Positions 9,074 to 51,826 of a stretch of 64,000 bases of DNA are shown piece after piece. This DNA is from Oasisia sp. SBJ-2009 (lineage: Eukaryota; Annelida; Polychaeta; Sabellida; Siboglinidae). The translations under genes and the position numbers were made by a program. The notes beneath the pieces were generated by a model. It saw nothing but the letters and a program-made list of their open reading frames with translations. It was not told the DNA's origin and searched no databases. Positions within the stretch are counted from its first letter, which is position 1; each line of letters starts with the position of its first letter. The DNA is taken from assembly GCA_964017155.1 (NCBI GenBank), contig OZ024856.1:5506813-5570812 (forward strand), given 5' to 3'.

Positions 9074-9233
9074 TCAACAAGTGCCAAGTGTTATCCTAGA
9101 TCTTGTTCTCTGCTGAGAGCACAGAAGTTCGATCTTATGGCCGGTATACACTGGTATGACTCTCTGTACCCTTCGACCAAGCCTGTCATGGATCCACCGG
9201 GTAAAATTCTCTGTATATGGCCGACTTGGACTC
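9074..9233 (-). pseudogene. Exon-like remnant resembling P2X7-type C-terminal zinc (ballast) domain, inside TTAA element copy 1
   Basis: On the minus strand a TTATTTTATTTCAG acceptor is followed by a 52-codon open frame beginning SPSRPYTENFTRWIHD, then RLGRRVQRVIP, ending at TGA (9074-9076). The run F-x-x-W-x-H-x-R-L-G-R-x-V-x-R-V-I-P resembles the segment of P2X7 receptor C-terminal-like domains just before their conserved cysteine. The expected following cysteine is absent and the frame then stops, so it looks broken or incompletely spliced. The match is from memory of the family and is tentative. The opposite strand carries a 121-codon open frame (8882-9247) that I regard as a shadow. Confidence 0.35.
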
Positions 9234-9276
9234 CTGAAATAAAATAAGGCTTAAATAAATATATCAACTATGTATA

Positions 9277-9738
9277 GTGGCACAGTGGTTTAAAGCTTTG
9301 GACTTGGCTTCAGACTCTCAACTACGAGAACGAAACCATGTGCTGCTGTGTCGAACCTTGGGCAAGTCTGTTCACCCGTCATTGCTCCAATTCACTCGGC
9401 TGTGTAAACAAGTAACTGGCTATTGACAGTGGTGGATATTTGTAACACGAACCGTCTTGATTCATTAATTACAGCTTGGCTGGATGCTTCCCACAGTCAT
9501 GAGATGGTGTTTAACTGAATAGGTATGCCAGGGAGTAAAGTGTAAAGCACTTTGGACAATGCCGAGCAGACATGGGGTCAAATACGTTGACATTTATTTA
9601 AATACAAATACTCTTGAGGAATCCAAATACATTTAATTACTAAACATCAATTACAGTTACTTAAAACTATTTAAATACTTTCAAATACAAATGTATTTGA
9701 CCCCATGTCTGAGGATTGGATACTGCACTATATAAGAA
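9277..9738 (+). repeat. tRNA-derived SINE carried inside TTAA element copy 1
   Basis: The tRNA-like head TGGCACAGTGGTTTAAAGC is followed by CTTTGGACT, GTGCTGCTGTGT, the core CCTTGGGCAAG, then CATTGCTCCAATTCACTC and the tail GGATACTGCACTATATAAG. It is homologous to the SINE at 22738. It is split by a 145 bp MITE at 9567-9711, so the SINE was in the transposon before the transposon duplicated. Confidence 0.7.
9567..9711. mobile_element. 145 bp MITE nested in the SINE
   Basis: The perfect termini CAGACATGGGGTCAAATAC and their reverse complement bound an AT-rich core. It lies exactly where the related SINE at 22738 is continuous. The target duplication is at most 2 bp (AG) and not secure. Confidence 0.65.
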
Positions 9739-18112: not shown

Positions 18113-26344
<8,232 letters not shown>

Positions 26345-31700: not shown

Positions 31701-34384
31701 CAACCTTCTAAGCAGTGGTTGTTTGCTTTATAAAGCTTAATCATAGTCTTATGTGTAATTAAATCTTGAAATTAAAGAATTTTTTGAGCGGTGAAAAATT
31801 CAGGTGTATTACCATGGGAATGGTATTCAAGGTTATAGATAATTCGCATAGCTTGTTTCTGCAACAGCAGCAATACGACATGCATGTATGATATAACGTG
31901 ACTGGTAATGGTATAATGTGCGTAATTATTTAGTTCCCTGCACATGGGAGGCATTATTTTAAAGGAAGCCAAAAGGGAAATATTACGTGATATGCACGTG
32001 AAAGAGCTAATACAAAGCAACCATTCTGAACGGTAATCACATTTTTAACGACAGTGGTTTATTAGTAAAATAATTTCAAAGTGGATAATTTCACTGAAAT
32101 CCTCGGCTCCGTAGAGGCGGCCATTAACGCGCCCCGGTCCGCCTCTTCCTGTTGTATAACCATTCAGCACGCAGAACCGGCCTTAAAGTCACGTGTCCGA
32201 TGACGCATAATAATGCTTATCGCCGTTGTAAACACAATGTTGTCAGATACCCGAACTTCGAAGAAGAACATCCGTTCGAAGAACCTTGCTTCGAATGGGA
32301 TGTTTCTCATCGTATATAGTGGGTCAAGATCCGCAGAAACGTTGGCGACGTCGAGTTTTGAAATTTAGAGCTGTGCAAACGATATTGGCGCGATATTTAA
32401 TCACCAACGATAGTCGTTGAAACGGGTTACCGGTCGAAACCTTCCATCGCCGTAGCCAAGTCAGCGCGCGCAAGAAGGTTAGTAAATATTAAGTCTTCTG
32501 TGTCTAAATTATTTAAATCTTGTACCATTAGACACATTGCGATGTCTGTCGTTATGACTTATGTACATACTGATATATTTTATAAACATCCACCACAGTT
32601 AACGTTCTAGAAGGTATGTACATGACATGGGATCATGGAGCCGCTAACTAGGTCTAGGACCAAGTCCAAGCGAGTTAAACCGTTCGATATTGTTATTCAT
32701 TATTATTAGTTTTATTTTATCCTACATTGAATGGTATCACGTTTGCATGAACAGAGGCATATAAATAAGGTAAAGCTACATGTGTTAAACATGACCGTAA
32801 CATTAAAACACAGCTGAATGCAAGCCAGATCATAGATGTCCCCATCAATTCGCATGAACGATAATATAGCACCTAGATTTTGGTTGGTTTATTTCATTCT
32901 CTGGGCAATCAATACAGATTGAAATAGGTACATAAAACATGCAAAATATATTTGTTAAAATAGATTGAAATAATATATAATTTAAAACATTAGCATAAAT
33001 AAAAAATTAATTAAAAAAGTAGAGAATAATTTATTTGAAATGTATCTATAAAGGTAAATTAAATATGTTAAGACATTAAAACATATTTTCTTTGATTATT
33101 TGAATAAACTTAAAAATTACTTTAATAAAATATTTTAATAAATACTTTAAAACATTAAAATAAATAGGTCTAAAGAATAAATTAAGGTTTTACAATATTC
33201 ACTAAATAAGTTTTCAAAAATACTGCCTTTCATAGTTACGCAGTTCCTATTTTCAGGTTGACCACTGTGAATGTGCCAGCATGCCTGCAATATTTTTCAG
33301 TAAATATATTATTCAAACATCACAAACTGGCATTGCGAATGTTGTTTTCAATCATGTTATTCGTTCAGCGAGACACACAATTACAAATTCTGTGTGCTGT
33401 GTCAGTTCAGATACTAATACATTGATACTAGGACATGTTACAGGCTTACAGTAAAGGATGAATAATTAGCTATGATGAGACATAACTTATGTACTGTAAA
33501 AATTACTTTGCAAATTTGCAATATTGCCTTTATTGGTAGGTAGAGTTTCTTGAAATATTGGGACACACTCAGCAAACAAGAAGAAACATTAACACACCCC
33601 AATAACAGACTAGCATAATATACTAGATGGAACGAGTCAACGAGGATTTGTAGATATCCCACAAGATCAGTCGGTAAACATTTGGTACCAGTTTCTTCCC
33701 CACAATAAGAGTGCAAATCACTAACCTAATTCAATAATAATTTAATCCAATAGTTTAGCAAGTAAGTCAGATGATCCACCATGCACATTGGCGTGATGTG
33801 TCAATATGACATTTTGCCAGTTAAAATATACATTGTCATAGATATTCCTGTTCGATTGATATTTTGAGGTGCCAACGTTTATGTTTATTGGATAATAGAA
33901 TCTGAAGCACTTAAATGTCATTATAATTTTTTTTTTTATTAAAGACAACCACACTTGATAACAAGCCACTGTATATAAGATACAACATGACACAAATATT
34001 TAGCAGTACAGCATGTCCTGTTTATTTATAGGATGGAACCATGGCTCTAGCAAGAACGTCCGGCCACGTCCTAGCGAACCTTGACAACATGGCTGTTTTC
34101 TGGTCAAGACGCAAGTAATTGGAGCTGCAGAAGACACTACAGCTGTATGTTTACCTGCAGATCCACCACACTGTGGTGGGAAGAATGAGTGAATGGTGAA
34201 TTACATCTTTGTCAGAACTCTGGCCGCTGCCCACAACGACTGTCCATGTCAGAATTGCAATCCTTGGTTCAGATATGCCCTAGCTAATGAAAGAAGGTCT
34301 GCTGGTGTCAAGAGTCAGTTGATTTGTTCATTGACAATCCAACTGCTTATTCACAAATCAACTGATAATTCGCAAGGGCAGCAG

Positions 34385-34544
34385 TCAACAAGTGCCAAGT
34401 GTTATCCTAGATCTTGTTCTCTGCTGAGAGCACAGAAGTTCGATCTTATGGCCGGTATACACTGGTATGACTCTCTGTACCCTTCGACCAAGCCTGTCAT
34501 GGATCCACCGGGTAAAATTCTCTGTATATGGCCGACTTGGACTC
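34385..34544 (-). pseudogene. P2X7-type C-terminal domain remnant in TTAA element copy 2
   Basis: Same sequence as the remnant at 9074-9233, at the constant 25311-base offset, with the same acceptor and the same terminal TGA. Confidence 0.35.
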
Positions 34545-34587
34545 CTGAAATAAAATAAGGCTTAAATAAATATATCAACTATGTATA

Positions 34588-35049
34588 GTGGCACAGTGGT
34601 TTAAAGCTTTGGACTTGGCTTCAGACTCTCAACTACGAGAACGAAACCATGTGCTGCTGTGTCGAACCTTGGGCAAGTCTGTTCACCCGTCATTGCTCCA
34701 ATTCACTCGGCTGTGTAAACAAGTAACTGGCTATTGACAGTGGTGGATATTTGTAACACGAACCGTCTTGATTCATTAATTACAGCTTGGCTGGATGCTT
34801 CCCACAGTCATGAGATGGTGTTTAACTGAATAGGTATGCCAGGGAGTAAAGTGTAAAGCACTTTGGACAATGCCGAGCAGACATGGGGTCAAATACGTTG
34901 ACATTTATTTAAATACAAATACTCTTGAGGAATCCAAATACATTTAATTACTAAACATCAATTACAGTTACTTAAAACTATTTAAATACTTTCAAATACA
35001 AATGTATTTGACCCCATGTCTGAGGATTGGATACTGCACTATATAAGAA
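34588..35049 (+). repeat. SINE with nested MITE, TTAA element copy 2
   Basis: Duplicate of 9277-9738, including the nested 145 bp MITE at 34878-35022. Confidence 0.7.
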
Positions 35050-36983
35050 CTGTGTTGACAGGTGACATATGAAAATGGAGGTAACTCAATCCATTATCAT
35101 TGTAGAAAATACAATAGAATACATGTTCTGTTTTTATAAAATCACTGGAACTTTTTTCAATTCTCACATAGTGGACAACTGGCCATGCTACTCGAAATGT
35201 TCTAGAATGATCCTACATCATTTACTGTTAAACCTAATTTGTTGGGTATATTTCTACTATGGAATAATATGTGGTGTTTTCATTGTATGAAATGTCATTT
35301 GTATTATATAAAATGTTTGGTGTTCTGGTTACTCTAATGTTATTTTCATTGTCAATAAATTGTGAGCAACACATTTCACTGTTGTTATAAATACATGAAC
35401 ATAATATTATACTTACATCTTTGTTGGCAGATATATGTGACAGTTGTCTAACATTTGGAAGCACTGTCTGCTCGAAACACAGACTATAAAATCCATGGCC
35501 ATTTGTAATATATCATGGCACATCTGAAACAGAACCAGATGTATAAATGAGTTTTTTATGAATAAGAAATATTATTAGCACAATATAGAACATCACAGCT
35601 ACTATTATGGTTACCTTGACACGACAACAAAGTTACATTGCAATTAAGACCACCACAGAATATACATAAATATATCCACATATGTTATAGTTTAGAATAT
35701 TTGTTCTGCTAGTTGTGTTACTTTTACCCAGTTCAAAATGGTTATTTTTAATAGAGACATATATTCAGCTAAAAACAACTTTATTATTCAGCATGAAGTT
35801 GATTTCATAAAGAACATGGGTGGTGATTTTCTTTCTTTATTTAGCCCTCCAGAATTAGGCTCCAAACCCTCGCTTTAAATATACCACGCCTATTAAAAGA
35901 ACAATCAATATTGACACACATCTGTTTTTTAGTCGCACAGGTCATGCTATGTCAATAATACAAAAAACATGCCACATTCGCTGCTGTTAATATAATAATG
36001 TCCAGTATTTGAAAAAACAACAATTAATCTGCATTTTTTCCACATTTCAATGATTTGTGGGCAATTTGGAAATTGATTCCTGAAAACATGGGCGAAGGAC
36101 CGAGCCTGTCACTCTGTCAGTCTGTGTCAGGCTGAGATAAATCGGAGAGCCATGACCCCATATGTGATATGATGTGTTTCAAATTGGGTAACTTCAAGTT
36201 GTGTATAACATATCCGACACTACACCACTGACTTGGAGAATAATACATGACATGGCTGTGACTAAGTAGAAACTGCCGAATTCCGGGACCGAATGCGAGG
36301 TGGCCATCAGCATATCTGTCAGTGACAGTGTCACTGACCCACCATCGACTCCGTTGGCGTTGATATTTTAATTACTTAAATTAACATCCAGCCCAGATTT
36401 CATAATGAACATTTAGGGCAACATTTCTCATATTAGACACATAAATGCTTACCTTCACCGACAGATTTTTGAGTCTTCCTCCTAACAATACAGTTACAGT
36501 AACGGGTATCCACAGTAACAGCATACATTCGCCTTTCGAAGTTTCGGCGAGTTTCGACCACTTGTCGATCACTCAATGTCGCCTCGGCTTGTTACTCGCC
36601 TCTGCATTTCGGCTTCCGGCGGGTCTTCTTTACCAGGTTTACCAGCGCGTTCAGTTCTATCTTGAAAATGTTGGCCCTTATCGTTGCAATCGAAATTCAG
36701 CTATTTCTGAACGAAAATCAGGTCGGTTCGCCTACACGAATCGGATGTACACAGCGCCACCTAGCGATTATTTTTAAATACAGAATTGCCAGACTGCGAG
36801 CATTATTGACGTCACACATCAGTCAAAATGGCGCAACTTACAAACTTTGATAGAAAAGGTGTTCAGATTTTTTTTACTACTAAACCATTGACATTAAAAA
36901 TGTGATTACCGTTCAAAATAGTTTGTTTTTATTTACTCTTTCACGTGCATAGCATGTAACTTTTCGGTTTTGCGTTCCTTTAA

Positions 36984-37314: not shown

Positions 37315-37548
37315 TTGCCCATGCGCGTGAAAAACGCATTCGATGACATGTTCGATTTCCAGGAAAGAAAAATATGCGTTTTTCTGGGTTTGTCGTTTCT
37401 GACAGGTGTTGCGTTTGGCATTATTGGTGCAAGATATGCATTTCCTAGTCATCATGAACGTAGTCGTAGTGGCAGCACTGGCAGCAGACCGAGGGTAAGC
37501 TTTGTGAATCAAAATGAAGCAAGTGACGTTGCCAAGCGCCACCAATAA
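37315..37548 (+). CDS. Mitoregulin-like single-pass microprotein, paralogue 1
   Basis: 77-codon frame, not a known named gene. Residues 17-40 form a single hydrophobic segment after a basic residue: RKICVFLGLSFLTGVAFG. This carries the G-[LV]-[SA]-F-x2-G-x3-G core shared with the frames at 38007, 50141 and 50862. The rest is polar, with a serine/arginine stretch. A strong splice donor GGTAAGC begins inside codon 61 (exon end 37494, phase 0), so the true protein may be the first 60 residues plus a downstream exon I could not place. By analogy with mitoregulin I infer a mitochondrial or other inner-membrane microprotein. A promoter has not been identified. Confidence 0.6.
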   Translation: MPMRVKNAFDDMFDFQERKICVFLGLSFLTGVAFGIIGARYAFPSHHERSRSGSTGSRPRVSFVNQNEASDVAKRHQ

Positions 37549-37931
37549 AAATACAACGTGCATTATTAAATCAAAATGATCTGACGTGCACGCCAAAAAC
37601 ACCAGTATAAATCATCGGATTATAAACAGGAAGACCGACGGTAATCACGGTAAGTGTTGCCTTCTTCGTTATATTCTGTATAGCATCAATATTGAGGTCA
37701 TTGATGATTGACATTGGCGGCCCGGTGGATGAACAACAAGAAATATTGACATGATGATAGCCATCCATAATGAATGCCTGTACCGAGTGGCCGTGCACAT
37801 TTTAGTTTTCCGATGTTTTCAGACGCTTACAACACGACTAAGATATACCACATTTTAGTACTATTGTTATAACAAAATTTCGTTAGACAACTAAAATCAC
37901 GACGCGCAGTTTCCGGGAGTTAGTCGCACTA

Positions 37932-37957
37932 CTTCCGTTTGGTCGCTCTGTGACGTT
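37932..37957 (+). promoter_or_regulatory. ETS and CRE-half motifs upstream of microprotein 2
   Basis: CTACTTCCG (reverse ETS core CGGAAGT) and TGTGACGTT lie 50-75 bases before the ATG at 38007, in a CpG-containing stretch that differs from the AT-rich surroundings. Consistent with a TATA-less promoter for a ubiquitous gene. Confidence 0.3.
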
Positions 37958-38006
37958 TCGTCCTTGACATTAATTTTGGATTGCTGCCTAGTAGGCGCTC
38001 TGCGTC

Positions 38007-38171
38007 ATGGTGCAATTATCTGCAAAATCGTTTGTCGCCTTCCTTGGAGTTGCATTCTTTTCTGGAGTAGTTTTGGGATATCTGCAAGAAACATTTGTTC
38101 CTTTTCAAACAAACTATTCGGAAGTTAAAGTTCATCAAACTTTATCAAAGACAGATCTGTCGAACATATGA
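38007..38171 (+). CDS. Mitoregulin-like single-pass microprotein, paralogue 2 (54 aa)
   Basis: A complete 54-codon frame, ATG 38007 to TGA 38169-38171. It is below usual gene-finder length limits. Residues 7-25 are AKSFVAFLGVAFFSGVVLG-like: a basic residue, aromatic and hydrophobic residues, then the G-V-A-F-x2-G-x3-G core, then a short polar tail. The hydrophobic core aligns without gaps to the frames at 37315, 50141 and 50862, and the start lies 692 bases after that of paralogue 1. No splice donor is evident inside the frame. Role inferred as a membrane microprotein related to mitoregulin; it lacks the long basic amphipathic tail of mitoregulin. Confidence 0.65.
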   Translation: MVQLSAKSFVAFLGVAFFSGVVLGYLQETFVPFQTNYSEVKVHQTLSKTDLSNI

Positions 38172-38367
38172 TTTGTTGAACATAAGGATGGCGAATACTG
38201 AATAGCACCGATTGATGATTGACAGTGTCACTGGCATAGTGCGAGACATCGTCTGTATCTACAGGTTAAGGTTTAAGCAGACTACGACAGTTATGGTAGC
38301 AATGTATCGATGCGTCTTTTATTCGGACACCCTTTTATTCACATAGGTGCATAGGTTCAACAGTCTG

Positions 38368-38407
38368 ATGTCTGCTGCAGATGTGCTATGGACGCGGAGT
38401 GTAGCAG
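38368..38407 (+). CDS. Possible short first coding exon
   Basis: ATG with 13 codons (M-S-A-A-D-V-L-W-T-R-S-V-A) then a strong donor GTAAGT at 38408, phase 1. It could be the first exon of a gene whose other exons lie beyond the transposon stack. Its phase fits the exon at 51945-52003, but so does the donor at 50980. Not supported by homology. Confidence 0.25.
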
Positions 38408-38944
38408 GTAAGTGTACGTACTTGTTTTTGGTGCAATTTACACCCGCAAAATTATTAAATAATAAATATAACTTATTATATAAATAGCAGCTTTTATATA
38501 ACTTCTTTGGCGGTGGCGTACGTTGCATGCTTTTGGCTTATGTTGTTCTTTAAACAAAATTGGCATTGCCATAATAAGTTTAGTCGACAAAATATGCAAA
38601 ATGGCAGGAAACGGCGCATTATCGCAGCATATAGCGTGCAACCTCTAGCAAGCAGCCGTCTATGCTGAAACAAGGACAGCCGATGCTGTAAAAGAAGACA
38701 GTGAGCACAGTAACTGTCTATAATTGGACACAAACAAGCGGGACGATGAAGAAATATTTTGAAGAAGATAATATAATACCACACATAAATAGGGGAATGG
38801 GCGGGTAAAGTGGGCCCCCTAACCGTCGGTCGACCTTCATTTGACATGTATGTTCCAAAAAGGAATTTTTTTGCTACAATACCTAGCTTTATATGTTGAC
38901 TAAGTATACGCATAGTCTATTTACTTTATCTTAATAAATATAAC

Positions 38945-39975
38945 TCTTTCATGGCCGGTCCGAAGCCCTGCTAGACAAAGAGGAGGATTGGGCAAAGAGC
39001 TTACAATCCTTTCCCGTAAAAAAAGAGATTGTTACAAAAACATCAACCAAAAGAACTCCCCAAATAGCAAGGGAACGACGGGTCTACAACATCATAGCAC
39101 TAGGGCTATGTGAAACGACGTGGACACCGTCGGGACAAGTCAGACTGAATACGGGAGAAATGATTCTGTACTCGGGGCTTGAAGAGGAAGATGCACATCA
39201 CGCAGAAGACGTGGCACTCATGTTGTCAAAAGAGGCACATCATGCTCTCATTAGCTGGGAGGCAGCGGAACCAAGGATCATCTTTGCCTCGTTCAAAAGA
39301 AAGAAAGAAAAGATCAATCTAAACATCATTCACGCACCCACAAATGACAAGAATGAAGAAACAAAAGAAGACTTTTACAACAAATTGCAGACATTGTGTG
39401 ACATACTGAAGGAGAAGAACATGATAATACTCATGGGAGAATTGAACGCCAAAATCAGATCAGACAACAGCGGGTACGAAGAAGTTATGGGCAAACAGGT
39501 ATTTGGCGGCAAAACGAATGAAAACGACGAGATGTTGGCCGACTTTTGTACCACACCGCAGAATTCATAAGGCAACCTGGGTAGCACCCAGACCACAGAA
39601 CAGAAAATAAATCGACCATATCTGCATAGGACGAAGGTTCAGAAGAGCAATGCAGGATGTGAGAGTACAGACAGGGGTCAATGCAGCCTCAGACCACCAT
39701 CGAGTACTGGCCAGAATGAAGATGAAGTTGAAGAAGAGAGAAGTCAACAGGCGCACCAGAACACAGACTTCCTAAAGGACAGAGTGACGACAGAGACCTT
39801 CCGACTTACAATCAGAAACAAATAGGAAGCCCTACAAGACTTCTTAAGGAAACATGGATACATATACACAGTGACAACAGATTAAGCGGAGATATGGACT
39901 AGCGAAGTTCTCGGAAAGGAGAAATACCAACAGAAAGACTGGATTTCTGCAGACACTCAACAAAGTGCAATGAGG
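38945..39975 (+). pseudogene. RTE-like non-LTR retrotransposon, endonuclease half (dead)
   Basis: AP-type endonuclease motifs appear in order: a GLCETTWTPSGQ start, APTNDKNEETK, LMGELNAKIRSDNSGYEEVMG, and a downstream DHxR-type region in other frames. In-frame stops and frameshifts break it. It is continued at 42832 after a foreign insertion that entered around codon context WISADT. Confidence 0.85.
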
Positions 39976-40041
39976 TACTACAATAATCAATCCGACAGAG
40001 GGCGCTCTAACGCAACTAAGGTCTTAGTGCCGTCTTTCACG

Positions 40042-40741
40042 TATAGAGCGTGAAAGTCTCGCGCGCGAAAACGAGGCTGGGGCAGTTGGTGGCAGGAAGT
40101 CCATATTCACCGTGTTAACATATAGGACTTTGTTTTGTTGTTGTAATAATCGAACTGTTCCCAAATAGCGTATTTCAGTTATATTGTCCGAAGGAATATT
40201 ACAAGCAGAAGCAACGGAACACGTTGCCGGTGACAATGCTCACGGAAATCATGAATTTTAATCGATTATTGTGGTGGTTGCCATGGCATTAGCGGCAAAT
40301 ACTTGTGTTTGGCGATCTTGACTAATAATGATGAGTACCATTTTTCGCGCAGTAGAACCTGTTTGGGGCAAACGTATACACGTGTTATGATTATGTGCAT
40401 TTAGACAACTTGTCAGATATAAGTGCTTATTGAAAACACAACGTACAGCAATGAAAAATCCAAATCCGTAAAAGACATATACGGCCTAAAATCGTGTATA
40501 TTATCTTCACTACGTAAATCGCTATATGTCTATGATAGTATGGTAAACTCAATATTAAATCGGACATTTAAGATGAGAAAGGTATAACACAAGATATTTA
40601 TGACCTGATTTTACTAGTATTTATCAGTCGGAAGCTACAACTGTCATCCATCGTTAGAATATTATTCTTGTGTCCAGTCCCCAATCAGCTCCAGTCGCGC
40701 AGAGTCTCGCCATGTATCGTGACCCATTTACAGGCCCTATA
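40042..40741 (+). mobile_element. TATAGGGC MITE, copy A
   Basis: Starts TATAGAGCGTGAAAGTCTCG and ends CATTTACAGGCCCTATA. It is homologous throughout to copy B (40738-41287) and to the inverted copy C (51117-51826). Termini TATAGGGC-x-TGTAA suggest TA insertion. Confidence 0.75.
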
Positions 40742-41287
40742 GGGCGTGTAAGTCTCGCGCGCGAAAACGAGGCTGGGGGCAGTTGGGGGCAGGAGGTCCA
40801 TATTTTCCATGTTAACGTATAGGACTTCGTTTTGTTTTTGGTTGTAATAATCGAACGGTTCCAGTCTAACTATTTCAGTTATACTGTCCGAAGGATTATT
40901 TCAAGCAGAAGCAGTGGAACACTTTGCCGGTGACAATGATCACGGAAATCATGAATTGTAATCGATTATAATGGTGGTTGCCATGGCAATAGCGGCAAGT
41001 ACTTGCGGTTGGCGATCTTGAATAATAATGAAAAGTGCCATTTTTCGCGTAGTACAACCTGTTTGGAGCAAACGTACACATGTGTTATGATTATGCAAAT
41101 TTAGACAACTTGTCAGATATAAGTGCTTATCGAAACCACAATGTACAGTAATGTAAAATGCAAATCCCGTAAACTATTTTATTGTGTATTATTCATGTGA
41201 CCAGTCCCCAATTGTCTCGCTTAGACCCCAATGAGCTCCAGTCGCGCGGAGTCACGCCATTTATCGTGACACACTTACGGGCCCTAT
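40738..41287 (+). mobile_element. TATAGGGC MITE, copy B, tandem with copy A
   Basis: Begins at the TATA that ends copy A and finishes GGGCCCTAT. It is about 150 bp shorter than A because of an internal deletion. Shared blocks include CTCGCGCGCGAAAACGAGGC and GGTGGTTGCCATGGCA. Confidence 0.75.
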
Positions 41288-41289
41288 TC

Positions 41290-42725
41290 TTGACGTGTGT
41301 AAAATGCGGAACGTTTTGCCGAAAAATTGCGGAACGCTTGTTTAAATCATCCTACAATCAGCTGTTGAACTCACATGACTCCGAAGCATCGCACATAGCT
41401 GATTATGGATACAATCTGACATGTCCGTCAATGTGAAGGCATAATATATATACATTAATGTACATTTACAGCCGATGGAACGTCGACTGGTGGCCCGACG
41501 ACAGGTGTGTTTGCGCGATGCCGGAACGGATGTTTAAAATCATCTACAGCTCGCCGTATACATCACACGAGACTGCGACTTCACACGTAGTTAAATATTG
41601 ATGTCGTATAAAAAATTGTCAATATGAAAGCATAATGTCTACATTAATGTACATTTACTTTCGATGGAACGTCGCGGGACGTTCGATAGAATTCAGAGCC
41701 TAGATCAGTAGATGGCGTCGTTTTGGCTGTTCTGTCTATTAAGCACACATACGGCATGCACACACATACACCCTATCGCTGGCCACGCGCCTGCACATCC
41801 AATAGCTTACCCTTCATATATATGAAAAGGTGTTTCACTATATAGGGAAAGGGTGGCATAATTGTTTTGGTCATGGTTTCTCTTAATAAAAGCTGAGCAA
41901 CGACATCAACATGGAAACCTAGGGCTAGGCTGGTGCACAGTTTCTTTTAACAAATAATTACATGCAGCCGAATCCAGACAATAATAGCATTATGTACACT
42001 ATTTACAATGACCTCACGCTGGTTTGATTGACACTATCAAATGTGTAAATGTAACCAAAATTAAATTCATTATTTTGATAAATAAACAGCAAAATTCACC
42101 AAGTGACACCAACCTTAATTGCACGGCCGAATACGATACAATGTAACATATTTTACCCGCCTAACATCGCGCAATGGCATTCATTGATATTAGTCCCAAA
42201 CAAATAAAAAATGAGTATGTTTTGTAAGATCATGTGATCGGTTCGCGGGAGGAAAACGTGGGCCATTTCTATATAATATCGGGTGGATAGTTCAGAGACC
42301 AAGAACGTGATCAGTGCACGGGACCGCGCCCTTTCTACTGTAAATGTGCATTAATGTAGACATTATGCTTTCATAATGACGGACATGTTATACGATATCA
42401 ATATTTAACTATGTGTGAAGTAGCAGTCTCGTGTGAATCATTCGGCGAGCTGTAGTCGATGGTTTTAAACAGTTCTGGAATCGTTCGAGCACACTTGTTG
42501 CCAATGTTGGGCCACCAGACGACGTTCCATCGGCTGTAGATGTACATTAATGTTATATTATGTTATTAACGTTATAATATTATGCCTTCACATTGATGAT
42601 TGACGGACATGTTAGACTATATCCACAATTAGCTATGAGTATGACCATGTGTGAGGTTTCGGAGTCATGCGAGTTCAACAGCTAATTGAGGATGATTTAA
42701 ACAAGCGTTCCGCAAAACATGCAAA
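41290..42725. repeat. Large inverted repeat with duplicated units
   Basis: The left arm (about 41300-41690) carries two tandem units around ACATTAATGTACATTTAC with CGATGGAACGTCG. The right arm (about 42340-42725) carries the same units inverted, including CATGTTAGACTATATCC and CAAGCGTTCCGCA. The centre is AT-rich. It resembles a fold-back transposon lying inside the retrotransposon. Confidence 0.65.
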
Positions 42726-42732
42726 CAAATCT

Positions 42733-42810
42733 ACGTTAGTCGCTAAAGGCGCTGATACGCAACTAGGGTCTAGTTGCGTATCAGCGCCTCTCTACTCTAG
42801 CGACTAACGT
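42733..42810. repeat. 78 bp near-perfect palindrome
   Basis: Outer arms ACGTTAGTCGCTA / TAGCGACTAACGT enclose inner arms GGCGCTGATACGCAACTAG and their exact complement, separated by only GGT. A related AGGGCGCT...ACGCAACTAAG occurs near 39991-40021 at the other end of the insertion, so these are probably the insertion's terminal structures. Confidence 0.85.
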
Positions 42811-42831
42811 GGGTTTGTGGAACCCCACCGA

Positions 42832-43965
42832 GGAAAGAAAAGAAAGGCGCAATTAACAACAGCCGAACGAGAGCAGCAAAAGCAACAGCACAGGAAGAGT
42901 ATACAGAGGCAAACAGAGCAGTCAAGAACAGCGTAAAAACAGACAAGGAAAACTTCATTGCAGACCTACACAAAGAAGCAGAGGATGCATCAGCCCAAGG
43001 AAATATGAAACAACTATATGACATAACAAGAACATTAGCAGGAAAGTACAAGCACAGGCCCATCAAAGATAAGAATGGCAATGTACTTACCAGTGATGAA
43101 GACTAGTTGAAGAGATGGATGGAACATTTTAAAGAACTACTGAACCGGCCACCACCTCAGAACACTTCAGACATCGCACCAGCTGAAAAAGTACTCCAGA
43201 TAAACTGCGAAAGACCAAGTAAGGCAGAGATTGGGAAAGCCATCCATCACACGAAGAGAGGGAAAGCTTTCGGTCCAGACAAAACTCCTGCGGAGTCAAT
43301 CAAGGCTAACATAGAGACCTCCACAGAGATACTAAATGATCTAATCGGGAAGAATTAGTAGCACGAAGAAATACCAACTGAATGGAAAGAATGGTACCTC
43401 GTGAAGCCCCCAAAGAAAGGAGATATGCAAGAATGTCAGAACTACAGAGGGTTAATGCTCCTATCAGTACCCGGAAATATCCTCAACAGAGTCATCTTGG
43501 ACACACAGAACGCACGGGTGGATGCCATGCTCAGAGATCCCCAAGCTGGCTTCCATAAAGGCAGGTCATACACCAACTAAATAGCAACACTCCGAATCAT
43601 TGTTGAACAATCCATGGGATGTGACTCATCCCTGTATATAAACTTTGTAGATTACGAGAAGGCATTTGATAGTTTCGACAGATATATCCTCTGGGAGCTT
43701 CTACAGCACTGTGGGATACCAGATAAATGTATATCTCTTATAAGAAATTCTTTTGAAGATATGGCATGCAGGGTCATTCATGCAGGACAACTTACAGACT
43801 CTTTCATGATGAAGACAAGGATTCTTCTGCCACCATTCTCATTCCTTGGCGCCATAGACTGAATCATGAAAAAGACTACAGAAAACAGAAGAAATGGGAT
43901 CCATTTTACATCTTTGAGTCAGTTGGAGGACCTGCACTTTGCGGGTGACCTCGCTCTCCTCACAA
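42832..43965 (+). pseudogene. RTE-like non-LTR retrotransposon, linker and reverse transcriptase half (dead)
   Basis: Resumes the element broken at 39975 with EEYTEANRAVKNSVKTDKE and LYDITRTLAGKY, then WMEHFKELLNRPPPQ, GKAFGPDKTPAES, NYRGLMLLSVPGN-like, QAGFHKGRS and FVDYEKAFDSFDR. The catalytic FADD box is altered to FAGD, and there are several stops and frameshifts. Confidence 0.85.
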
Positions 43966-44390
43966 GATATCTTTCGTGCCAAACAAACAATTACGTCGTT
44001 GTGTCCCCTGGCGGGTCTCTAAACACTACTACCGTTGTTTTGACTGCATTGCATACCAGGAAAGCTATGACAGTGGGAGCTCACTTTGAACAAGGGGCCC
44101 ACTTTACCCATCCTTCCCCTACTCTTGGTTATTAGGTTGGCGATCACATCAAGTAGTGAAGTTCGTTCTGATTGTGGTGTCTGTGTACATTACCTGTTTT
44201 GTATTACAAATTAAATAATGGCAAAGCGATTTGAGCCAGTGGATATTCTATTCTATATAAACCGGGGGTGAAATGTGCCAGGGTTCCCGGGGTTCGTGCA
44301 CCCTGGATTAGCTGTCAGGCTATAGATTCATCTTTAGGGGCCCGAATGGCTCGTTAAAATTTGCCAGTGTTACAGCACTGTTGTTACAAT

Positions 44391-47300
44391 CACGGGCGTC
44401 GATCGGTGGGGGACGGGGGGGACGCGTCCCCCCTCCACTTTTCAGGGTGGGGGGACAGCATAGGAATTGTCCCCCCCCCCCCACTTTTCAGTTAAGAAAA
44501 ATTGCGAGGCATATAGCCTGATTCAACACTCCTCTCTCTTAAAAGCCGCTACATAGGACTAGCTAGACAATAAAGTTGCGATATGAAGTTCAGCCAAGGT
44601 ATTTATCGCAAATTAACACGAGGCAAACAAGTTTTCGGGCATGTTTTGCTGTTAGTGCGCCATAATCCGTGATAGTTATTTAAACAAACGTAATATTTTA
44701 ATGTTTTTTATATTTTAATATTTTAATGTATTGAACGAAATTTTAGACACCTCTTCACAGTAGTCATCACAGGAGAGCTATCGAACAGCCCGTGACATTT
44801 ATACAAGAAATGCTTTGTTATTTCGCTGCACATTGATGATTTTAAATTTGTCGCGGATACGCAGAAAGGCCAATCGGAAAGTTTATAACTACCGGAAAAA
44901 TGTAAGCCGCTGCCGGTGTAGCGGTCCAGAACGTCGAACGTTAGAGGTTCATGTCAAAGGTTAGCGGTTCACGTCTCGGCATCGTGGTCGTTGTGCAGAA
45001 AAATTAAAGAGTGTAAAAAGCATTGATTTTAAACTCTTTGGAGAAATGGCAAGAACACGCGCGCGCTGGAAACTGTAGTGTGCAACGTAGGGGGTCGAAA
45101 AGTAGGTCGTCGCTACAGCACGCAGAAATGATTTATTATGTAATACAGTCGCCGCGGGGGTCATGGACTCGACATTCTGGCGCGGGGTCAAAGTTTATCG
45201 GCCACATGAGGTCACCTGAAGTTACGCCAATTCAGCGCGCATGTGCATACATGGAACGACGTTCTGGATCGCTCGACGTTCTCGACCGCCACACCGGGCT
45301 CTATCAGTTTACAACCTTGTGTTGATATTATTAATAGGCTCTAGCCATCAAGCACATTTTAAATGATGAAATTTGTGTTGCACTTTCACCCCTCGCCTCG
45401 CCGGCAGAGGGGGCGGATTCCTGCACTTTGTGTAACATAATATTCCCATTTGATTGATGACAAATTTCTTTGCCAAAATGTTGGATTGGGAAGTTCTACA
45501 CAGGCACAGCATGGGCATCGATCAGTGGGGGACGAGGGGGACGCTGACCACCCCACGGCCTGAGAGGGTCAGCTTAAAAAATTTCCTTATACTTTTTCAG
45601 TTCATAAAACAAATTTATAGGCATATATAGCGAGACTAATCACTCCCCTCTCTTTAAAACCCTACATCGGTCTAGTAGTAAAATTAATAATAAGAACTAA
45701 ACTTCCGACTACCTAGTGGAAAATCACTAGATAAATTGCTTGGTTGGCAGCAGCCCGCAACTTTATCAAAGTCCAGTAAATAGTCATCATGCCGGGCTCT
45801 GTCATTTTGCACCCTTGTATCGATATATAGCCATCAAGCACATAATAGATTATTAACTTTTTTTGCCCTGTCACCCCTTGGATTGCATCCTGGTCGGAGG
45901 ATTTGTGCACTTTGCACACACCGCGCACACACCGCACCGACTAGTCGGCGTAAAGCAGTCGGCCGACTGCAGTCGGTTTGGTGTGTGCGCAAAATACGCC
46001 GACGGTCGGCGTTATTGCGCCGATTAACGTCGATTAGTGCGGATTCAAATGTTGAATCGGCGTTAATTCCCAGTCGGCGCTAATCCGCAGTCGGCGTTAG
46101 ATAAGGAGGTATCCGGTGACAACTTGGCGCCGCAGGCGTATATCCGATGACGAGTCGGCTTGGTGTGTGCACGCTTTTTTCATAACCCGACGGTCGGCGT
46201 TAAGTTTGCCATTAGAAATCATAAGGTTTTCATGTGAAAAACCTCGTCATACCTAAGCCCGGCGTATTTTTTAGTTTCCATGCCTACTCTGACCACAAGT
46301 TTTACATTTCTACTTTCATATTTTACTGACCTGGTGGGTAACCCAATTTTTAGAAAGTAATGTATTATTTTTGTGCTATTCCCGTTGACCCATTACCGTA
46401 TATTCTTTTTCTACAAGCCGGAGCAACAAATAAATGTAATTTTGCCTTTGTTTCCCGCTTCCAAGGGGATTCTCCATTTTGTATCTTGTGAACAGCGGTA
46501 CCGCTGGTGGCGCCGCTGCCGGGGCATAAATTAAAAGCCTTTTACAAATCCGCAATGCGCCGCTAGCGGTTAACAACGTTTTTGAATATTTCGTTGGGTG
46601 TGACTGAATTTCAAGATAACTATTAATTGGAACGGATAAATATAATTTCTTTATTTAAATTACAGTTCGGCGCTACGCCTTTCTTTGCAGGAACACTGGC
46701 CAAATGCTCAAGACATTTCGTCGTGAACGCTGACGACGAAGCTCCGTCTTCATACGTAACATATTTCGGCACTTATGCAGAATTCGGACCCATCTCAGTT
46801 TTGCCATTATAAGTTTATAACTGTATATTTGCCTATATTGGATACGTCACACAAACGCTAATCCTAAACATGATCAATCAGCTTTCCAAGGCATATTTAT
46901 GTTTCACAAATATTCCATTTTGAGACCCAAATAGTGCTCCGATTTGTGCCAGTCGCAAGCGCAGCGGTGCATACGGCATGGCGCCGTGCACATAGAGTGA
47001 GCGATAAACAGTTTGTTTATGCCGACCGCGCTTTCTTTTCGACCTCAAAAGTATGTTAAGACGCGCTGTTTAAAAACATAAATATTCACAAGATGATGTT
47101 AAATGATTGAATTAACTAAATCAAGTATCAAATGATGGCAAAGATACAGTTACAGCGTCAATGGTTGAGGTGGGTCCGAATTCTGCGTAAGTGCCCGTAT
47201 TTCGTTTACAGGATTGCCGTTTCATGTACTTTTGACAAATATACCAAGACCAAGTGTTTATTGTAGATGGACTGAAGCACATCGTTAAATCCGTGGTCAT

Positions 47301-48116
47301 TGGCAATCATTCCATAAAACAAGTGTGAAATTAATATTATTTACGCAATTCGTCGATTAAATTTACGTCCCTGGCGCACTTTCGCCGCCAAATCACAAAT
47401 GTGGACACAAATCCGAAAAGCGACGCTACCGTTGAAGACGAATTCGTTGGATACGACTAATAATTATACTTCAACATAACTGTTAACTGGAACGGTGATA
47501 TTTTAAGTAAACACAAAATGAGTAAACACGCGAATTAATAGTGGATTTGAGGATACCGCTAGCGCCGACGGTCGACGTTAGTCGGGTTGGTGTGTGCGGG
47601 CAACAGTCCGCGTTAGTCGGCGGAACTAATTGGCGTCTACCACGGACCAATGCTAACGCCAACTGCCAACTGCAGTCGGCGTTAGTTGGTTGGTGTGTGC
47701 GTAGCATAATTTGATCTCATTTTAGTGATGACAAATTTCTTTGCCAAATGTGGGATTGGGAAGACCTACACAGGCACCCCTGTAAGCTCTGCATCTTGTC
47801 ACTCTATGAATCAGGCAAGCAGTGTTGGGTCCAAAGTCTACCCCCAAATGTTCATTGATTGGGGTAGGCCATGCCCCTCTTCAAATATATGTTGCCAACA
47901 TAACTACTATAAATAGCATAACATAAAGGCTTTTTTTATTTAGAATTAGCACCAGACCAACAATGAATTATGTTTTATAAAAAAAAATACTTGTGTATTT
48001 CAGGTCATATATATATATATAAATATATATAAAACATATTATAATATATATTATATGACATGTATATAAATTGGTTCCCCGTCCCCTCCACTTTTAAAAC
48101 CGGATCGACGCCCCTG
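44391..48116. mobile_element. hAT-type DNA transposon with 8 bp target duplication (3.7 kb)
   Basis: Flanked by the perfect 8 bp duplication GTTACAAT (44383-44390 and 48117-48124). The ends are CACGGGCGTCGATCGG and, reverse complemented, CAGGGGCGTCGATCCGG, both followed by G-rich strings. An internal partial copy of the end occurs at 45513 and a shared block (TGACAAATTTCTTTGCCAAA) at about 45460 and 47730, indicating an internal duplication. No intact hAT transposase frame was found. A second element is nested at 45923-47701, and a copy of the arm found at 60631-60718 is present near 44815-44910. Confidence 0.8.
45923..47701. mobile_element. TCGGCG-rich transposon nested in the hAT element
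   Basis: Ends CGCACACACCGCACCGACTA and, reverse complemented, CGCACACACCAACCAACTAA. Both subterminal regions carry many copies of GTCGGCG or its complement, plus TTGGTGTGTGCG. The interior is unlike its host. No transposase is readable. Confidence 0.6.
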
Positions 48117-48735
48117 GTTACAATATTAGCTGAAAATGTATTATCTTGTATTCAGGCACAATTGTATAGCCACTTGCCACTTCTAGTCACAGCCTAATTA
48201 AAGCTGAGAAGGGGAAGATCGTCGCTGGTCAGACGAAATCAATAACTTAATTAAGTAATATTGCCCACTTTCACCTTTCTATGCATGCTACGATTGTTTA
48301 CACAGTTGCCGACTATTTGTGGGTAATGCCAACTTTCTGACTAACAATTTATAATAAAATTATAGAAAACGATTATTTGCTCTCTATAATTACTTTTTAA
48401 TTAGTAGACATCATTTGGGAAATGCGTCTAGACAATTTGTGTTATTTTAAATAACACATTAAATCTCTGTAGGCTAATCAGCCCCCCATTTCTGAATTTA
48501 CCGTCAATGCTGATGGATTTGCGTGGCTGCCATAATATTATGGTCAAGTATCGAATAAACAAGTGAAATTAATAGGGTCGGCATGTCATTGTGTATGAGT
48601 GATTATATCATGATTATGCAGTCAAGTCTTGTTCTATCCCTCCCTCCCTCCCTCCCCGTGTGCTTGATTTGAATAGTTATATAACTTGTTAAATTATTTG
48701 AATGCATTGTAATAACATTATATCGACATATTTGT

Positions 48736-49641
48736 TTATTTACTCATAGATGGTAAGTTATGAAACGTGTCGTCTTGACTGATGGAGTGAACACCACCTC
48801 GTTGGCGCTCATCTCGGTTGGTCCTTCGTCTTGACCTAGCTCGGGATCTTGGTCGCCCAGAAGAGTGTCGTCTTCCTCCTGCGCCAGACGTCCAACCTGT
48901 AGCCTGCCGACATACTCGCTGCCAGTGATTGAGTTTCCCACATGCGTTACACCTACTGCCCTCTGCTGGACATCGATCTGTGGGCGCATGATGACGTCCG
49001 CATTTTACGCACGTAGGTGCCTCCTCTCGACGTCCGCTTGGCTCATGTGTTCTCCGCGACCGGCTGACGTGACTGATGCTGCTAGCGTCTCATGAGAACT
49101 GCTGCATGTTGGCCAGTGTTGCTTCATGCGTTCTAGCAACGTCCATCGCCGCGTCAAGTGTTAGTGTCTCATCACGGCACAGTAGCTTTTCTTGCACTTT
49201 CCCGTGCCGGACACCCACTACTAACTGTTCGATCAACCTCTCCTCGGTTTCTGTAGTATCACGGAACTTGCATTTACGCGCCTGCGTCTTGCAGCGTGTC
49301 ATGAATTCGTCAACTGTCTCAGAGCTCAACTGCCTGAATTTTTGCAGATGAAAACGGCTCAGCCTGTAATTAGACTTGGGTTCTATCAAAGCCTGGAATT
49401 TAGCCCAAATGACCTCAACGTCTTTCTTATCAGTTTCACTGAGGTCCCACGTATTGTACATTCGCCGACCCTCCTGTCCTACCCATAGCAGGATGTAGGT
49501 CACTCGTTCACTCTGCCCTTTTTCAGCAAAGGGCCCACTGAAAATCAGTTCGCAATATTGACGGAATGAACGAAACTCCGTGGGTAAATCAGTGGCTAAC
49601 CAGTTCATGCGGGGCGGCTCTATACCTGACAGATCACCCAT
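48736..49641 (-). pseudogene. gag: Ty3/gypsy-type retrotransposon gag, one in-frame stop
   Basis: The minus-strand frame starts at 49641. Capsid-like features are seen: MNWLATDLPTEFRSFRQYCE, RVTYILLWVGQEGR, RLIEQLVVGVRH and ARTHEAT. The frame is interrupted by TGA at 49090-49092, then continues in the same frame to two CCHC zinc knuckles (CVKCGRHHAPTDRC and CNACGKLNHWQRVC) and an arginine-rich tail, ending at 48736, beyond the element boundary. No protease, reverse transcriptase or integrase follows. Gag packages element RNA into particles; this copy is non-autonomous and probably dead. Confidence 0.85.
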
Positions 49642-50008
49642 GGCTGCCTATTAATGGCAATGTATATCACTTACTCAGTGAGAACAACAAATCGAACCTG
49701 GCCAGCGTCGGCGGTGCCGCGTGCGTGTTGACCTATTTACGAATGTCGAAAGCGCCGGATTCAACCGTAGCTGCCACCATGAAACGTGTCGTCTTGGCCT
49801 GACATCTGTGTAGTCGGATTGTCCGACTCATCTCGCATTCATACATGCATATCTGATTCGACACCAGAAGTACTGAACAAATCACTTTATTACGATTACA
49901 TGCGGAGAGAGGGATAACACTGATCGACCTCGAGTCTTGTCATCTTCCAAGACCGATCTCTTGGACTGCATATGTCGTTCTATGCATTTACATTGGCATA
50001 CCATCACA
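48761..50008 (-). mobile_element. Gag-only LTR retrotransposon bounded by a 5 bp duplication
   Basis: Target duplication AGTTA at 48756-48760 and 50009-50013. A 229 bp 5' LTR occupies 49780-50008 (termini TG/CA). The primer-binding site TGGTGGCAGCTACGG starts immediately next to it at 49779 on the minus strand. At the other end only the last ~17 bases of an LTR (TGAAACGTGTCGTCTTG on the + strand) remain. The right edge lies 133 bases before the mitoregulin-like ATG. Confidence 0.8.
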
Positions 50009-50133
50009 AGTTACACGTTTGCCTAAATTCTAGCGTGTGTAATGGCGTTTGTAACCTCAGGCAAGTAGTCAGCGGAGTGCTGCACACGGTGGCGCCTCAC
50101 AGTGGATACTGGATAACCTAGAGGTTGTTTACC

Positions 50134-50214
50134 ATGCAAGATGTCAACTTCTGGGAAGTCGTTTGCTGTATGGATGGGACTTTCTTTTATAGCTGGTATA
50201 TTGATAGGGTATAA
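50134..50214 (+). promoter_or_regulatory. Upstream overlapping reading frame at the mitoregulin-like start
   Basis: An ATG seven bases before the main ATG, in a better context (ACCATG), opens a frame of about 26 codons that ends inside the main coding sequence. Ribosomes choosing it would not make the microprotein. Regulatory role inferred. Confidence 0.35.
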
Positions 50215-50368
50215 AATAAAAGGTTTGCGTATCAAATATCTTCAGGCCAAACGAAAATACCTGGAAAGAAAATTGGCCGAAACTCGGAAGAAAATCGACT
50301 GTGAAGCTGGAGCGGGAGAAACGGGGACAAACAACCAGCGGCTCTGTCAGCGGCCGGCGTGCCCATAG
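50141..50368 (+). CDS. Mitoregulin (MTLN) homologue, single-pass microprotein, paralogue 3
   Basis: 75 codons, ATG 50141 to TAG. Mitoregulin is a small mitochondrial inner-membrane protein linked in mammals to fatty-acid oxidation, cardiolipin binding and respiratory supercomplexes. Residues 4-53 align to the human 56 aa protein without a gap, with 17 of 50 identities by hand. These include the membrane segment G-L-S-F-I-A-G-I-L-I-G-Y, the basic helix (L-R-x-K-Y-L) and the tail KLAETRKKID. The last ~22 residues are an extra, low-complexity extension. An ATG at 50134 in another frame overlaps this start (about 26 codons), a possible translational brake. A gag-only LTR element ends 133 bases upstream. 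Start choice rests on alignment with the mammalian N-terminus. Confidence 0.8.
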   Translation: MSTSGKSFAVWMGLSFIAGILIGYKIKGLRIKYLQAKRKYLERKLAETRKKIDCEAGAGETGTNNQRLCQRPACP

Positions 50369-50861
50369 AGTCACTTAGTACGAGTGCTAGAGGTGTCGTA
50401 ATAACGGCTTGACACTGATTTGTCGCATTCTAACGTAGTCACTGCATTATCCTTCATCTCCGTGACGCGTGGAACAATCGATCGTCAAGACGTAGTGGTG
50501 TGGACGATAATTAGGTAAATTGACTTATGGTATGTGCAGTAGCCGCTAGACGTAACATTTTTGACCGGTAGCCCTCTGCCGGCAAAGGTTCACGTCAGGC
50601 GTCTGATCCGTTGTTTGCGTGAAAACGCAAGTCACGCATTTTTTGAAAAGGAAACATAGGAGTATAACAAATCTAGGACGTTAAAGACGCTGTGATCAAA
50701 ACGATGGAATGTGAATTGTTGTTGGGAAACGTTGGATGCAGGGAGTAAAGAGCGACAACTAATTTATTAGCTGCCGCTGGCGCTTCAGTTTCGTCTGCTC
50801 AAGTTCAATTGATCAGGCGCTGGATTCGTATTAATAACGCCTCCCTTGTTACCCTCTTACC

Positions 50862-51047
50862 ATGTCTATCGATGCCACAGTTGATGTTGGCGACAAGCGT
50901 TTTGCTTTGTTCTTGGGTGTTTCGTTCATGATGGGATTTGCTGTAGGGCATTCAATTTGTCAATGGGCTGAGAAGTACAGTAAGTCAAGCAGAACTTACA
51001 GAGATTTTGCTGGAATGGGTGGATTCAGGGGACTCACCACTGTGTAA
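50862..51047 (+). CDS. Mitoregulin-like single-pass microprotein, paralogue 4
   Basis: 61 codons, ATG 50862 (context ACCATG), TAA 51045-51047. Residues 11-30 (DKRFALFLGVSFMMGFAVGH) carry the same G-V-S-F-x2-G-x3-G core as the three sister frames, followed by a short amphipathic basic helix. The start is 721 bases after paralogue 3. A strong donor GTAAGT at 50980 interrupts the frame after codon 39, in phase 1, compatible with the exon at 51945. The short unspliced form and a longer spliced form are therefore both possible. Function unknown; membrane microprotein related to mitoregulin by inference. Confidence 0.6.
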   Translation: MSIDATVDVGDKRFALFLGVSFMMGFAVGHSICQWAEKYSKSSRTYRDFAGMGGFRGLTTV

Positions 51048-51116: not shown

Positions 51117-51826
51117 CTATAGGGCCTGTAAGTGTGTCAGAATACATGGTGAGACTCCACGCGACTGGAGCTGTTTGTGGACAGGACACTAATTATATTC
51201 TAATTACGGATAACAGAACTTTGTAGTTTCCGATTGATAAATATTAGGAAAATCAGGTCATAAATATCTTGCGTTGTACCTTTCCTTTCTCAACTGTCCG
51301 ATCTAATATTGAGTTTATCACACTGTCATAGACATATAGCGATTTACATAGAGCAGATAGTAAGAACGAATTTAGGCCGTATTTGTCTTTTACATGGTTT
51401 GCATTTTACATTGCTGTACATTGTGGATTCACAACAGTTCGATATGCAGTCATATCAGACAAGTTGTCTAAATGCACATAATCATAACGTGTACAAACTA
51501 CAAATGTACACATTTGCCCCCAACCATGTTGTACTGCCCGAAATATGGCATTCTTCATTACTTGTCAAGATCGCTAAACACAAGTACTAACCGCCGATGC
51601 CATGGCAACCACCATAATAATAAATTATTGTGGTAATTCTTACCAGCAAAGTGTCACACTGTTTCTGCTTGTAATTATCCTTCGGAACATGTAGCTATTT
51701 TGGGTTATTTGGGGACAGCCCGATTATTACAACCAAAAACAAAACAATGTCCTATCTTTTAGCATTGAGAAACTAGACTTCCTGCCCCCAACCTCGTTTT
51801 GGAGTGCGAGACTTACATGTCCTATA
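51117..51826 (-). mobile_element. TATAGGGC MITE, copy C (inverted)
   Basis: Reverse complement of the family at 40042 and 40738: starts CTATAGGGCCTGTAAGTG and ends ACTTACATGTCCTATA, with the shared GCCATGGCAACCACC near 51600. It lies in the 3' flank or intron of paralogue 4. Confidence 0.75.

Follow-up and report, generated by a model that had tools for sequence, protein, structure and literature searches.

The 64,000-nucleotide stretch of annelid DNA analysed here (hereafter the window) carries on its + strand four short open reading frames (ORFs) for putative single-pass membrane microproteins, one of which, ORF3, is by its sequence mitoregulin (MTLN), while the other three are probably old duplicates of it. 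ORF1 (37321-37548) encodes 75 residues with the core ERKICVFLGLSFLTGVAFGIIGARY and a His/Ser/Arg-rich tail; its membrane core, with an S-x3-G-x3-G face, was placed at 37378-37419 from a motif scan and the helix predicted by AlphaFold2 (AF2). ORF2 (38007-38171; 54 residues, core AKSFVAFLGVAFFSGVVLGYLQETF) completes the first pair. A spacer (38172-50140) with interspersed repeats, frames resembling long interspersed nuclear elements (LINEs) and a gag frame on the - strand leads to ORF3 (50141-50368; 75 residues comprising a membrane helix, a basic amphipathic helix and a variable tail) and ORF4 (50862-51047; 61 residues, core DKRFALFLGVSFMMGFAVGHSICQW). All four frames listed in an earlier note on this DNA are there, and their cores align without gaps. 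The sole correction concerns the start of ORF1: the open frame reads TTG at position 37315 and its ATG lies at 37321, so that the ATG-to-ATG spacing of the first pair is 686 bases instead of the 692 given before, while that of the second pair remains 721. Within each pair the ORFs are separated by about 460-490 bases.

Mitoregulin is a tiny mitochondrial membrane protein that, to our knowledge, has been believed absent from invertebrates. ORF3 matches its Pfam family, PF22002, over 49 of the 56 model positions with 46.9 bits (E-value 2.6e-12) against a cut-off of 27, in agreement with the earlier assignment of one member to mitoregulin. The further Pfam matches of ORF3, COX14 (E = 0.0079) and LapA_dom (E = 0.016), are weak and lie far below their own cut-offs, and a PDB search with ORF3 returned two weak, uninformative matches (with ORF2, none). 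When the genome (764,102,534 bases in 33 contigs) was searched with PF22002, ORF3 alone exceeded the cut-off among the nine matches listed (125 candidates scored). Besides ORF3 and ORF4, the list holds seven matches at E-values of 1.4-10. Six of these (L003-L006, L008 and L009) were rejected, none of them having the core G-x-[SAT]-F-x2-G-x3-G; L005, L008 and L009 represent one repeat of contig C12, which has SF-x2-G without the other two glycines. The seventh match lies at another place on C12. In 14 control genomes the same search gave a match in one (E. coli), below the cut-off, and a scan of viral contigs with the MTLN alignment produced 95 pattern matches, none of which was confirmed. The Kyte-Doolittle hydropathy of ORF3 peaks at residues 8-26 and is followed by a tail of charge +9, and AF2 models a single helix over residues 4-55 with a mean predicted local distance difference test (pLDDT) of 62.8, so that a membrane helix at the N-terminus and, after it, a basic amphipathic helix are predicted at moderate confidence.

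All seven proteins found as ORF3 relatives (relatives are counted here as proteins, not species) carry PF22002. The first 56 residues of ORF3 are conserved among them, with 46/56 identical in P0006, 45/56 in P0007 and 53/56 in P0005, and the tail beyond residue 56 varies; P0004 and P0005 have 25 and 2 extra residues, respectively, ahead of the common start. Five of the seven (P0003-P0007) end in GVVITA, and P0001 and P0002 end as in the window. The tail of P0003 aligns to 50323-50409 in a different frame, and an end reading ...STSARGVVITA plus a stop is still legible at 50374-50412 (+ strand), out of frame with ORF3. The GVVITA end is probably ancestral and the remnant in the window would reflect a lineage-specific change of the tail.

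The ungapped cores, ERKICVFLGLSFLTGVAFG in ORF1, AKSFVAFLGVAFFSGVVLG in ORF2, GKSFAVWMGLSFIAGILIG in ORF3 and DKRFALFLGVSFMMGFAVG in ORF4, all end in G-[LV]-[SA]-F-x2-G-x3-G. The six pair scores among them range from 45 to 67, whereas their scores against the 245 remaining ATG ORFs of the window with 40-150 residues (three longer ones were excluded) peak at 37. Shuffling of the core residues matched the observed score in 2/3,000 trials for ORF1-ORF2 and in 0/3,000 for every remaining pair. A loose motif, G-[LVIAM]-[SATG]-[FLIM]-x2-G-x3-G, occurs at four places in the six frames of 264 kb around the locus, all of them ORF1-ORF4; in 20 order-2 Markov simulations of 264 kb, which were built on average composition and leave genes for membrane proteins outside the model, it occurred eight times in total (0.4 per 264 kb), and the strict form not once. 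The common ungapped segment of about 20 residues proposed in the earlier note is thus well founded. We also considered whether the near-equal spacings within the pairs point to duplication of an entire pair and found this origin unsupported, because ORF1-ORF3 (45) and ORF2-ORF4 (52) are not the top-scoring pairs.

The variant G-[LVIAM]-[SAT]-F-x2-G-x3-G is present in 17/17 compared sequences (the fragment P0013 was dropped). In ORF1-ORF4 and in a probable fifth member on contig C10, described below, small residues at i, i+4 and i+8 (S/A/T, G and G) fall on one helix face; the S/A/T-x3-G-x3-G membrane core is present in ORF1, ORF2, ORF4 and the C10 member, and vertebrate MTLN has it as well. 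For ORF1, AF2 predicts a helix over residues 2-40, with a mean pLDDT of 67.2 for the whole model that rises to 90 in residues 21-30. The tails have net charges of +9 (ORF3), +4 (ORF1), -1 (ORF2), +3 (ORF4) and +4 (C10 member). They are divergent, as had been noted, and yet do not differ completely: the match of ORF3 to ORF4 runs ungapped for 35 residues, the sole ungapped ORF3 match to extend past the core, and that of ORF1 to the C10 frame spans ORF1 residues 5-60.

The C10 frame (44617788-44617949, - strand) was found in the genome with ORF1 as a query, at 37% identity and an E-value of 0.032. It reads MGDLPDEKLLVVIGLTFVSGVAVGLLVGKYGGFVCRCGSGSCSTGKKGSM, has the start context ACCATGG and, when searched back without its first Met, matches only itself and ORF1 (19.4 bits, E = 1.42). 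We regard it as a probable fifth member of the family, by sequence likeness. Since it sits on another contig, the family is not wholly tandem, and the previous description as a tandem cluster fits the four linked ORFs. The frame lies between exons on the same strand that resemble sushi repeats, so it might alternatively be an exon. The other genome match of ORF1, C12:30930357 (E = 6.6), has two in-frame TGA codons and was rejected.

Kinship of the remaining ORFs to ORF3 was assessed with a hidden Markov model (HMM) of ORF3 and its seven relatives. The target set comprised 1,639 ATG ORFs of at least 30 residues from 264 kb of the locus contig and from 20 kb of C10, the latter included because ORF1 had already found the C10 frame. 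Next after ORF3 the model ranks ORF2 (E = 3e-5), ORF4 (7.2e-5), ORF1 (0.044) and the C10 frame (0.69). Leave-one-family-out models give E-values of 2.7e-4 for ORF1, 2.3e-6 for ORF2 and 2.4e-7 for ORF4, and 6e-4 to 0.02 for the C10 frame, which was never in any model. When ORF2 and ORF4 are searched against the 764 Mb genome at E-values up to 10, the sole second match of each is ORF3 (19.3 bits, E = 1.2, and 19.1 bits, E = 1.17, respectively; two candidates scored in each search), and we count these matches as evidence because in a genome of this size both land on the neighbouring mitoregulin. A single hhalign comparison of the MTLN set with the set of ORF1, ORF2 and ORF4 gave a probability of 90.9 and an E-value of 1.1e-6 over 22 columns. 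In a tree of the cores the C10 member pairs with ORF1 (support 0.78), ORF4 joining the two (0.87), on 25 columns, which are too few to rely on. Taken together, the HMM ranks, the genome matches and the core statistics support the view, already put forward in the earlier note, that the paralogues retained a single glycine-zipper helix and diverged in their tails.

Searches for relatives of ORF1, ORF2 and ORF4 retained six proteins of 19 candidates, and a wider profile returned the same six of 51; one, P0013, is a fragment matching P0012. All four ORFs thus have relatives and, as the 17/17 sequences above indicate, the core is conserved in them. The start Met and the stop are the same in the ORF1 relatives P0008 (99% identity) and P0012 (83%), in the ORF2 relative P0011 and in the ORF4 relative P0009 (92%). 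P0010 is identical to ORF2 at 54/54 residues and reads past the ORF2 stop, and so serves as a control for constraint: it has 0/54 differences within ORF2 and 9/33 in the downstream aligned stretch (Fisher p = 7.5e-5; the downstream residues come from the best local alignment, which is in another frame, and adjacent sites do not vary independently). P0012 differs from ORF1 at 5/42 of the first positions, 9/14 of the next (three being a gap) and 1/19 of the last, and therefore the far tail looks constrained too; P0008 likewise has a single difference among these 19. For the ORF3 relative P0003 and for the ORF4 relative P0009 a single contig is given, in both cases of 1,878 bases; for P0001 (ORF3) and P0008 (ORF1) the contig measures 1,720,826 bases each time. 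Judging from the equal lengths, the members of either couple appear to share a contig. If P0003 and P0009 do so, the ORF3-ORF4 neighbourhood is conserved; the compact ancestral cluster that had been suggested finds support in this pair alone and none for the rest.

The explanation that we favour, with a probability of roughly 0.7 for the whole, is an annelid gene family descended from mitoregulin by duplication, in which the oligomerising helix was kept and the tails were replaced. As part of it, vertebrate MTLN would have its orthologue, or its nearest relative, in ORF3, with a short N-terminus, one membrane helix bearing an S/A-x3-G-x3-G face and a long basic amphipathic helix, and ORF1, ORF2, ORF4 and probably the C10 member would be old duplicates of mitoregulin. 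A review (PMC11920140), citing other work, describes vertebrate Mtln as membrane-inserted in mitochondria, self-oligomerising and cardiolipin-binding, and PMC13303939 links GxxxG faces on the membrane helices of MIC10 and STREMI, both small mitochondrial proteins, to homo- and hetero-oligomerisation. On these precedents we propose mixed annelid oligomers formed through the common helix. A single helix of each microprotein would be inserted in a mitochondrial membrane; through their glycine faces the helices would pack into homo-oligomers and into hetero-oligomers with the ORF3 product; the divergent tails could then give each assembly different lipid or protein contacts, and the paralogues might act as accessory or competing subunits. 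A wider idea, which we hold tentatively and would not bet on, is that of an older animal family of glycine-zipper microproteins with mitoregulin as one branch, forming mixed mitochondrial membrane complexes through one helix with tails that set the partners, of which vertebrates kept a single branch.

Several observations weigh against descent of the whole family from mitoregulin. MTLN is the sole Pfam match of ORF4 (17.9 bits, E = 0.0028) and of ORF2 (14.3 bits, E = 0.038), below the cut-off in both cases, and Pfam gives nothing for ORF1 or for the C10 member. Relatives score no better against MTLN: P0009 reaches 16.9 bits (E = 0.0059), P0011 11.9 bits (E = 0.21), level with its match to S_100, and P0012 has none. 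As none of ORF1, ORF2, ORF4 and the C10 member scores above the curated Pfam cut-off, we class them as paralogous relatives and not as members of MTLN. The second genome matches are individually weak, with E-values near 1 and only the best candidates scored. The likeness is limited to about 20-35 residues of membrane helix, a region of strong composition bias, and the strongly basic C-terminal helix of ORF3 is not found in the other four. Upstream CpG enrichment, at 1.35 for ORF2 and 1.21 for ORF4 (window 0.81), is 0.86 for ORF3 and 0.58 for ORF1, so that this hint of a promoter is limited to ORF2 and ORF4. Finally, the protein products of ORF1-ORF4 and of the C10 member are predicted ones.

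Among the alternatives, the one that survives best accepts the family and places it in another membrane (endoplasmic reticulum, plasma membrane or secretory pathway), with a mitoregulin-like location kept by ORF3 alone. The mitochondrial location of the ORF products is a prediction, and the ORF2 tail, at a charge of -1, lacks the basic character of the ORF3 tail; presumed ancestry and a core in common with a mitochondrial protein speak for mitochondria, and we consider relocation unlikely, though worth keeping in mind. Less probable still is convergence, in which ORF3 alone would be mitoregulin and ORF1, ORF2 and ORF4 unrelated single-pass microproteins that arrived at S/A-x3-G-x3-G independently. 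Short hydrophobic segments converge readily, the tails align poorly and the Pfam matches of these three ORFs are below threshold or missing. Convergence does not account well, however, for the closeness of the four ORFs (one strand, less than 14 kb) combined with second matches that, over 764 Mb of genome, fall exclusively on ORF3, for shuffles that keep the composition of the core and still reach the observed scores in at most 2/3,000 trials per pair, or for a motif found nowhere else in 264 kb.

Two further readings have very little in their favour. One gives a function to ORF3 alone and takes ORF1, ORF2 and ORF4 for duplicates in decay or for look-alikes that do not code; it would agree with the predicted status of their products, with the frame-shifted tail of ORF3 itself in the window lineage and with the reading of P0010 past the ORF2 stop, but it is hard to reconcile with at least one intact relative of each of the three having the same start and stop, with a single difference in the last 19 residues of ORF1 in P0012 and with complete identity of ORF2 in P0010 beside a diverged flank. 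That the ORFs are exons of larger spliced genes and not stand-alone microprotein genes is about as improbable: by eye, ORF1 shows an acceptor-like TTTCCAGG ahead of the core and, at about 37493-37500, a donor-like GGGTAAGC, and the C10 member sits between what are presumably sushi exons on its strand, but in P0012 the ORF1 reading is preserved on either side of the splice-like sites, with unchanged start and stop, P0011 and P0009 keep the start and stop of ORF2 and ORF4, a donor AGGT[AG]AG occurs in 0/4 ORFs (a strict pattern, which misses GGGTAAGC), and the C10 member has its ACCATGG start.

The mitochondrial genome of the host bears on the taxonomic setting of the proposed mitoregulin family. 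COX1 lies on contig C33 (15,483 bases) and contains six stops under the vertebrate mitochondrial code, all of them AGA, against none under the invertebrate code and also none under codes 9, 13, 14 and 24. In a comparison by eye, the best solved relative has serine at the positions of five of these AGA codons and alanine at the sixth, which speaks against a vertebrate. The genes nad4L, nad4, nad1, nad3, nad2, cox1, cox2 and cox3 follow one another on one strand of C33 (Pfam; nad2 identified as a Proton_antipo_M protein), with the large-subunit ribosomal RNA between nad4 and nad1; a 60-residue frame between cox2 and cox3, without a Pfam match, looks like atp8. This order equals the gene listing for two siboglinid annelids in Table 2 of PMC10815697, provided that table order reflects genome order, and fits the annelid blocks given in PMC2667193. 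Mitochondrial code and gene order together indicate an annelid; a siboglinid would be no more than a guess. The molluscan haemocyanin family has no match in the genome, and likewise none in 14 controls, so that this absence carries no weight. The 447 codons of the COX1 reading (C33, L041 1501-2841) include no TGG, AAG or AGG, as opposed to 11 TGA, 8 AAA and 6 AGA, and third positions are strongly biased towards A.

Barring transfer, an annelid copy above the curated cut-off makes the gene at least as old as the ancestor shared by annelids and vertebrates. Like vertebrate mitoregulin (MTLN, MOXI, LINC00116; PF22002), ORF3 is one short ORF with an N-terminal membrane helix and a basic helix; unlike it, ORF3 continues past the MTLN-like part with about 20 additional C-terminal residues. 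According to PMC11920140, one gene encodes the vertebrate protein in an ORF of 56 residues, which is conserved across vertebrates. Annelid ORF3 has three linked paralogues and a probable fourth. A parallel by description is offered by Sloth1 and Sloth2 of Drosophila (eLife 2022, PMC9681215), presented there as diverged adjacent paralogues encoding single-pass mitochondrial microproteins that are non-redundant and act in one pathway; the annelid ORFs resemble them as diverged neighbouring paralogues for putative single-pass microproteins. In the same source, Sloth1 and Sloth2 share a bicistronic transcript and are linked to complex III; the annelid ORFs of a pair have about 460-490 bases between them. 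By motif, the glycine-zipper face likens the annelid ORFs to MIC10 and STREMI, and the latter differ in having two membrane segments and a MICOS role in the inner membrane. In the titles and abstract openings of the literature searched, with preprints and most subscription papers outside it, we found no invertebrate mitoregulin family and, in keeping with the earlier note, no prior description of such an expanded family. Natural paralogues that hold the helix constant and vary the tail separate the two halves of the protein, and the disputed roles of the helix (self-association) and of the tail (lipid and protein contacts) become testable with natural variants.

The spacer had been described as nearly all mobile elements. 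This is borne out in part: a Retrotrans_gag frame lies at 49093-49647 on the - strand (Pfam, E = 3.8e-6), and a 1.7 kb piece that was tested, 44000-45700, recurs across the genome (94 matches including its own place, with the best 40 of 3,843 candidates scored), and 19% of 38172-50140 recurs in the limited set of DNA compared. The frames at 38944-39570 and 43119-43862, which we take to be LINE-like, have no Pfam match at E-values up to 0.01. Inverted copies of one repeat, 77% identical, lie within the spacer (40085-40742) and just after ORF4 (51117-51792).

Elsewhere in the window, a direct repeat of 5,028 bases (6645-11672 and 31956-36983, 25,311 apart) is identical in its two copies except for the third base, and the second copy ends 337 bases before ORF1; it may be a very recent duplication or an assembly artefact. 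Rfam gave no match in the window at gathering scores, and a 155-residue, partly proline-rich open frame at 25877-26344 (+) has no Pfam match at E-values up to 0.01. An open frame at 2-1195 (+), truncated by the window edge, contains a glycine-rich stretch followed by a NOVA-type KH domain, the best solved relative of this exon being NOVA-2. On the other side, the region is flanked by a presenilin exon, at 62440-62811 on the - strand (PF01080, 100.2 bits).

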